Of a stretch of DNA of 64,000 nt, positions 29,270-30,057 are shown one piece after another. The stretch is taken from assembly GCA_019359175.1 (NCBI GenBank), contig JAHHHU010000001.1, positions 372,001 through 436,000 of the forward strand. The letters are read 5' to 3'. Under the pieces are notes generated by a model. It saw only the letters and a list, made by a program, of their open reading frames with translations. It made no database searches and was not told the DNA's origin. Positions within the stretch are counted from its first letter, which is position 1. Each line of letters begins with the position of its first letter. Made by a program: the position numbers and the translations under genes. Origin of the DNA: Phormidium tanganyikae FI6-MK23. Its GTDB lineage: Bacteria > Cyanobacteriota > Cyanobacteriia > Leptolyngbyales > Leptolyngbyaceae.

Positions 29270-29324
29270 GCGCCCTACAGTATTGATAAAACACAGTCAG
29301 AGTAAAAAAACAAGGATAGGGCGC
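29270..29324 (+). promoter_or_regulatory. inverted repeat enclosing the rhodopsin ribosome site
   Basis: GCGCCCTA (29270-29277) is exactly complementary to TAGGGCGC (29317-29324). The right arm fills the space between the Shine-Dalgarno AAGGA (29312-29316) and the ATG at 29326. Pairing in the leader RNA would bury the initiation region, so translational control is possible. This is inferred from sequence only. Confidence 0.45.
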
Positions 29325-29325
29325 G

Positions 29326-30057
29326 ATGACACAACAGACGTGGCTTTGGCTCGGTTGTCTGAGCATGGCAGCGGGAGCGATTTTTTTTGGATTCGGGGCA
29401 GAACGGGCGAAAAACGATCGCTGGCAAGTGGTCTACGTTCTGAACTTCTTTATTTGCGCGATCGCATCTGTTCTTTACCTAGCCATGACGCAGCGCCAAG
29501 GATTTAACGTGATCTTCGATCGTCCAACGTTTTGGGTGAGATATATCACTTGGATGTTTTCGACTCCATTAACGATCGTATTACTCAGCTATTTGGGTAG
29601 AACAAAACCGATTATTCTCGCTAGTATGATCGGTGCGGATGTATTAATGATTGCAACTGGTTTCGTCGCTGCAATCTCGCCCAAACCAATTACAAATCTT
29701 TGGTACATCGTAAGCTGCGGCTTTTATCTAGGACTAGCGTATCTGTTGTTAAAGCATTACCGCGATCGAGCAATCGACTCTTATCCTCGATCGAAGTCTG
29801 TGTTCAATCGTTTACTCACCGTACATCTCGTGATTTGGTCACTCTATCCAGTTGTGTGGATTCTCGCAGGAACCGGAATTAACGTGATCAATAGCACCGT
29901 TGAGACGGCATCTTACACCATTCTCGATGTTGCGGCAAAAGTGGGATTTGGATTCTTAGCGCTGAGTTCTTTACAGAAATTGGAGAAGTCGGAACTCAAT
30001 CAGCCAGAGTTCGATGAGTCACTATCCCGCGATAACTATACCGCTAGGAATCGCTGA
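29326..30057 (+). CDS. microbial rhodopsin, halorhodopsin-like, TSL motif
   Basis: A 243-residue seven-helix retinal protein of the bacteriorhodopsin/halorhodopsin family. By alignment to bacteriorhodopsin: R72 (=R82), T75 (=D85), W76, S79 (=T89), L86 (=D96), D105 (=D115), W171-Y174-P175-W178 (=W182, Y185, P186, W189), E193 (=E204), D201 (=D212), and K205 (=K216, the retinal Schiff base). Loss of the D85 and D96 carboxylates argues against proton pumping and for inward anion transport. The cyanobacterial anion pumps I can recall have Thr-Ser-Asp, so Leu at the third position is unusual; haloarchaeal pumps have Thr-Ser-Ala. An AAGGA ribosome site lies nine bases upstream. Its 3' end overlaps urtE by 22 bp. 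No retinal-forming dioxygenase is in the window. Confidence 0.93.
   Translation: MTQQTWLWLGCLSMAAGAIFFGFGAERAKNDRWQVVYVLNFFICAIASVLYLAMTQRQGFNVIFDRPTFWVRYITWMFSTPLTIVLLSYLGRTKPIILASMIGADVLMIATGFVAAISPKPITNLWYIVSCGFYLGLAYLLLKHYRDRAIDSYPRSKSVFNRLLTVHLVIWSLYPVVWILAGTGINVINSTVETASYTILDVAAKVGFGFLALSSLQKLEKSELNQPEFDESLSRDNYTARNR

Follow-up and report, generated by a model that had tools for sequence, protein, structure and literature searches.

A TSL-type cyanobacterial halorhodopsin in Phormidium tanganyikae belongs to a distinct clade marked by Thr83, Asp105 and Ala204

The window analysed here, a 64,000-nucleotide stretch of the Phormidium tanganyikae FI6-MK23 genome, carries a gene for a halorhodopsin-like protein of 243 residues. 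The open frame comprises 245 amino acids, and an upstream in-frame stop lies two codons before the ATG at position 29326, so that a longer start is hardly possible. A search for sigma-70-like promoters between 29000 and 30200 found none, against 1.6 expected by chance. The features are listed below with reference to bacteriorhodopsin (BR) and to two cyanobacterial halorhodopsins (CyHRs) with known structures, the chloride and sulfate pump SyHR from Synechocystis (PDB 7zou) and the chloride pump MrHR, or MastR, from Mastigocladopsis repens (PDB 6xl3 and 6k6i).

29307..29325, + strand: possible ribosome-binding stretch aaaacaaggatagggcgcg upstream of the ATG, read by eye
29326..30057, + strand: TSL-type CyHR, 243 amino acids, from the ATG at 29326 to a stop codon ending at 30057
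29536..29592, + strand: helix C, residues 71-89, with R72, T75, W76, S79, T80, P81, T83 (L/Q-switch position) and L86
29638..29640, + strand: Asp105 codon, helix D (SyHR N104, BR D115)
29824..29826, + strand: His167 codon, helix F; this residue typifies the clade of cyanobacterial anion pumps
29872..29874, + strand: Thr183 codon, sulfate switch position (Thr in SyHR, Glu182 in MrHR)
29926..29940, + strand: Asp201, Ala204 (A/TS colour-switch position) and the Schiff-base Lys205, helix G

Upstream of the rhodopsin gene lie genes for a rhodanese-like protein, an acyltransferase and a glycosyltransferase, of which only the rhodanese recurs beside the rhodopsin of a relative, and in one relative. 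Downstream, urtE, urtD, urtC and urtB are convergent with the rhodopsin gene, and the rhodopsin and urtE frames overlap at their 3' ends by 22 bases (30036-30057). In each of the six closest TSL genomes, that of the window included, urt genes are found downstream of the rhodopsin gene, with a 3.4-kb contig (L121) showing urtE only. They were not found beside five other TSL genes, one of these stretches being just 4.3 kb long, and a functional link to the urea transporter is not claimed. In two stretches of 16-17 kb around genes with a TST motif (L127 and L128, from genomes of another family), urtB-E lie within about 4 kb on the same strand.

The protein matches the Pfam family Bac_rhodopsin over residues 2-217 (E 4.7e-48), and a sequence search of solved structures returned MrHR and SyHR as the closest entries, at about 55% identity and E about 1e-82. 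The AlphaFold2 model, computed from a 29-row alignment, has a mean pLDDT of 89.3 and a pTM of 0.83 and consists of seven long helices and one short, low-confidence C-terminal helix; a Foldseek search with this predicted structure ranked MrHR and SyHR entries 1-6, with rmsd values of 0.7-0.8 at 55% identity. Together with the phylogenetic placement described below, these matches bear out the first-pass annotation, which had called the protein halorhodopsin-like. Helix C (WVRYITWMFSTPLTIVLLS) aligns with its relatives without a single gap, so that R72, T75, S79 and L86 fall on four BR positions that we take to be R82, D85, T89 and D96. These numbers are consistent with the motif table of PMC5877348, and their transfer rests on the gap-free helix, the BR-like rows of the alignment and the conventional BR numbering. 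A misplaced helix C motif, a source of error that the annotation itself had named, is thereby ruled out; R72, T75, S79, L86, D201, K205 and the helix F aromatic residues had all been placed correctly. D201, K205 and W171, Y174 and P175 of helix F do not vary across the 29-row alignment, which contains this protein.

Relatives were sought in 386 genomes of the phylum, 42 of the order and 388 of the class, in samples that overlap. A close relative (E below 1e-70) is present in 28 of the 388 genomes of the class, and the motifs in those 28 genomes are TSL (11), TSD (9), TSI (4), TSV (2) and TST (2). All 11 TSL genomes belong to the order of the window, where TSL proteins occur in 11 of the 42 genomes, its own counted. 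Among the TSL records with names are those of Cyanobacteria bacterium FACHB-63 (92% identity) and Pseudanabaenaceae cyanobacterium LEGE 13415 (87%); the relative from FACHB-502 carries the TST motif. Two further family-level genome searches yielded no new CyHR, and a search of a plasmid collection returned 8 records, all at most 38% identical to the rhodopsin. A heliorhodopsin search of the genome gave 0 matches, as did its control. In three same-genus relatives (L024 and L045 in genome G406, L025 and L048 in G408, L027 and L046 in G407), four rhodopsin matches each were observed, some of them partial; they are of different types, xenorhodopsin-like included, and G407 also has CyR-like matches.

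An alignment of 83 rows was assembled from the fetched loci after removal of shorter, identical or contained frames. The first tree was built from 45 rows, comprising 31 cyanobacterial anion-pump sequences and 14 archaeal halorhodopsin, BR-like, sensory-like and CyR-like sequences, leaving aside xenorhodopsin-like, NDQ and the remaining DTE rows and excluding columns 86, 105 and 212. For the second tree, of 37 rows, seven long-branch rows (including the TSV row L076) and six trait columns were removed. The CyHR clade containing this protein was recovered with 31 rows in the first tree (support 100/98) and 30 in the second (98/98), and within it the 11 TSL rows, which are 61-91% identical to this protein, form one clade (98/96 and 99/96). 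The TSL subgroup is thus well supported, as the first-pass annotation had proposed for the leucine-bearing proteins when it called for a phylogeny and for scoring of the motif. The deeper splits are less sure: a union of the TSL and TST rows is weakly supported (89/66 and 80/71), and the 18 TSD, TSV and TSI rows appear as the other side with support of 95/89 in the first tree but 52/46 in the second.

The TSL clade is set apart by residues other than its name-giving leucine, among them Thr83, Asp105 and Ala204, which go beyond what the first-pass annotation had noticed. Compared with the 18 TSD, TSV and TSI rows, Thr83, Leu86, Met101, Asp105, Gly136, Leu137 and Ala204 are fixed in the 11 TSL rows. 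Thr83 occurs in 11/11 TSL rows and in 0/72 other rows of the 83-row alignment, in which Gln83 is confined to the two TST rows; the 18 TSD, TSV and TSI rows have Leu at position 83 (18/18), Leu at 101 (18/18), Asn at 105 (18/18), Ser at 204 (17/18) and Gly136 in one case (1/18). Ser212 is replaced by Ala in 8/11 TSL rows. Asp105 is also present in archaeal halorhodopsin and CyR-like rows, which favours Asp as the ancestral residue; judged from these sequences Asp105 is probably old, although the weak TSL-TST union and the drop in support for its sister group tell against certainty. The clade lacks the third-position Asp but retains Asn40, the residue with which the TSD aspartate is partnered in SyHR; the four TSI rows (L071, L073, L074 and L075) have Ser at this position.

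On the second tree, position 83 changed twice, 86 four times, 105 once and 204 twice, and positions 83, 86, 105, 204 and 212 each changed one to four times. With so few changes these positions trace common descent and lend coupling no independent support, and for the same reason no statistical covariation among positions 83, 86, 105 and 204 is claimed.

R72, T75, W76, S79, H167, W171, E193, D201 and K205 are invariant in 31/31 CyHR rows, all 11 TSL rows included, and H167 is found in 0/52 other rows. The third-motif Asp, which does not strictly define the family, is present in 12/31 CyHR rows, where this protein has L86. The features that define other rhodopsin families are absent from this protein. 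Cyanorhodopsins (CyRs) have Asp at BR position 85 and Asp or Glu at 96, where this protein has T75 and L86, and the four CyR-like rows lie outside the CyHR clade. Anabaena sensory rhodopsin and the xenorhodopsins have Asp and Pro at BR positions 85 and 212, respectively; the xenorhodopsin-like rows carry these residues, whereas this protein has T75 and D201. Haloarchaeal halorhodopsin, with the motif TSA, shares the T-S site, the lack of Asp at BR 96 and Asp at 105 (L092 and L095), but these two rows, the sole archaeal halorhodopsins in the alignment, form a separate clade (100/100) with Thr in place of His167, and this protein, with its TSL motif, lies outside the pair.

Based on its family and residues, the protein is probably a CyHR that uses light to pump anions inward, chloride and perhaps also sulfate, whether or not it has been retuned. 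In SyHR, chloride is held by T74 and S78, and its release has been proposed to proceed past H167, beside a cavity formed by N104, T137 and H167 (PMC9617919). This protein retains the equivalents of T74, S78 and H167 and has Asp105 and Leu137 in place of N104 and T137. The H167A and H167I substitutions in SyHR impair transport of chloride and sulfate, and H167Q does not (PMC11995866). By analogy with SyHR and MrHR, retinal would be bound to K205, with chloride near the protonated Schiff base in the dark state, held by T75 and S79. Isomerization of retinal by light would let the anion pass H167 to the cytoplasmic side, where it would exit, and the next anion would enter from outside through an entrance formed by R72 and E193. 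Leu86 would stand in place of the non-essential Asp of the TSD pumps. Thr83 would lie against the 13-methyl group of retinal and, with Ala204 and Asp105, may shift the absorption and slow late steps of the photocycle. Three genes for RPE65-family carotenoid oxygenases in the genome are possible sources of retinal.

SyHR, at about 55% identity, shares the T-S chloride site, the arginine, E193, H167, D201, K205 and Thr at the sulfate switch, and A47, Q58 and W126 are kept. It differs in Asp85, Leu82, Asn104, Thr137, Ser204 and Ser212, which here are Leu86, Thr83, Asp105, Leu137, Ala204 and Ala212, and its Tyr106 corresponds to Leu107. MrHR is similarly close (about 55%), lies in the same clade and has the same chloride-site residues; it differs in its TSD motif and in carrying Glu as its sulfate-switch residue. 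Sulfate transport is governed by the charge at MrHR 182 or SyHR 183 (PMC9525653). Thr183, which all 11 TSL rows have, is the uncharged form of this entrance switch, as in SyHR, so that sulfate may pass too; F64 and P119, which replace A63 and A118 of SyHR near the switch, count against this.

The TSL motif itself is in print. It is named once each in PMC5877348 and PMC9617919 as a cyanobacterial variant, so that it is not new, whereas the first-pass annotation had named only TSD for the cyanobacterial chloride and sulfate pumps, and PMC9617919 accepts TSV, TSL and TSI as variants of anion pumps. These variants show the same variation at the third position and are very probably the group described here; the passages concerned name the motif and describe neither a clade nor Thr83 or Asp105. 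Some of the 31 CyHR genes counted in PMC11528372 may also be TSL proteins. In the open-licence literature, no study of a TSL protein and no transport, spectral or expression data were found, nor does Thr83 or Asp105 come up there for these proteins; a characterised TSL homologue, against which the annotation had hedged its claim of a distinct subgroup, is thus absent there, although the motif is published. What is new is the evidence for one TSL clade with the signature Thr83/Asp105/Ala204 and for Gln83 in its likely sister, the TST pair.

The annotation had further expected the leucine to alter photocycle and anion selectivity. This attribution is not supported, given that archaeal TSA proteins are chloride pumps (PMC9617919), as is a TTV relative, the BacHR of Myxosarcina sp. 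GI1, which absorbs at 557 nm (PMC7979833); Thr83 offers the better argument for an altered photocycle. We tentatively propose, short of an even chance and by analogy with other rhodopsins, that the TSL clade consists of anion pumps retuned in both kinetics and colour, in which Thr83, Asp105 and Ala204 would prolong the life of a late intermediate and move the absorption maximum, and that the sister TST pair with Gln would be a blue-shifted anion pump. Replacement of BR Leu93 by Ala or Thr is said to slow the decay of the N and O intermediates, in work attributed to Subramaniam et al. (1991).

The L/Q and A/TS colour switches are BR Leu93 and Ala215, here Thr83 and Ala204 (PMC6197263, PMC7979833, PMC8514524), and in SyHR the equivalent of Thr83, L82, lies in the retinal pocket and reorients as the C20 group of retinal moves towards it (PMC9617919). 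In BR, Thr90 forms a hydrogen bond to Asp115 (PMC3411786), with Thr80 and Asp105 as the equivalents here. The BR variant L93A has a long-lived O state and no decrease in transport (PMC3411786), so that Thr83 need not matter for output. In proteorhodopsin, wavelength follows side-chain volume at the L/Q switch position (PMC8514524); no coevolving partner of that switch was found in proteorhodopsins (PMC10807816), which argues against coupling. The direction of the colour shift is uncertain: Ala204 should shift absorption to the red, and for Thr at 83 the literature passages gave no value. The two TST halorhodopsins with Gln at the L/Q position (L005:4995-5693 and L064:1483-2184) are candidate blue-shifted anion pumps.

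The strongest competing account keeps the anion pump and denies only the retuning: the protein would be a plain CyHR pump like SyHR and MrHR, and the TSL motif, T83, D105 and A204 would have accumulated by lineage drift. Because each trait changed so few times on the tree, the traits may occur together through descent from a single ancestor and not for functional reasons, and D85 is not conserved in the family and is reported to be non-essential in MrHR, where its replacement has little effect (PMC9617919). However, T83 and A204 sit at retinal-pocket colour-switch positions and are fixed in the TSL rows despite identities that fall to 61%, and the TST pair has another polar residue at 83. Drift comes nearer to an even chance without reaching it.

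A more distant account holds that the protein is a retinal-based photoreceptor that has lost efficient pumping, either a slow light sensor or a non-transporting pigment. Sensors typically have slow photocycles, and Thr at the BR Leu93 position should make the cycle slower. The D96-type carboxylate is missing, and so, in 8/11 TSL rows, is Ser212 of its SyHR network. Like this protein, the TSV BacHR of Cyanothece sp. PCC 7425 and the TTV protein of Myxosarcina are cyanobacterial halorhodopsins that lack the third-position Asp; the former, absorbing at 566 nm, showed no substantial transport in E. coli (PMC7979833), so that a hydrophobic third residue can go with undetectable pumping. The chloride site and exit path (R72, T75, S79, H167, W171, E193, D201 and K205) are nevertheless kept in 11/11 TSL rows. 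No transducer-like gene was found among the seven neighbouring genes and no conserved neighbour points to a sensor, so that the sensor offered as an option by the first-pass annotation gains no support from the gene neighbourhood and is unlikely.

An outward proton pump of the cyanorhodopsin type is very improbable: CyR-like rows lie near the CyHR clade and also have Asp105, and a single Thr-to-Asp change turns MrHR into a proton pump (PMC9617919), but T75 replaces the acceptor Asp85, L86 replaces the donor, and the protein lies inside the CyHR clade with the support given above.

The gene is maintained under strong purifying selection, with dN/dS of 0.043-0.082 against its five nearest relatives, ratios made rough by dS values of 1.1-1.8; against five more distant relatives dN/dS is 0.117-0.180 in four and saturated in one. 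The strength of this selection indicates that the frame is not a chance one. A decaying gene, an idea prompted by a second, decayed-looking rhodopsin gene in the same genome, is scarcely credible, because the frame is open, the key residues are retained and the ratios to the nearest relatives are low. This second gene (L002; G000:C64:4239-4952, - strand), which lies outside the window, belongs to the NDQ sodium-pump (KR2-like) family and has the appearance of a decayed gene: a stop codon interrupts its frame around helix A, and its helix C is divergent.

The sequences show the family, residues, clade and selection of the TSL proteins; their transport, direction and substrate we infer from relatives, and their colour and kinetics from individual residues. 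Few CyHRs have been characterised, and the well-studied MrHR and SyHR are TSD proteins (PMC9617919). The TSL clade supplies natural proteins that lack the Asp96-type residue and have Thr at the main colour switch, which opens the roles of both positions to study in naturally occurring variants. The two TST proteins, with their Gln, offer a lead towards a blue-shifted anion pump, of possible optogenetic use. If the proposed retuning is correct, the colour switch of the proton-pumping proteorhodopsins would also be used in cyanobacterial anion pumps.
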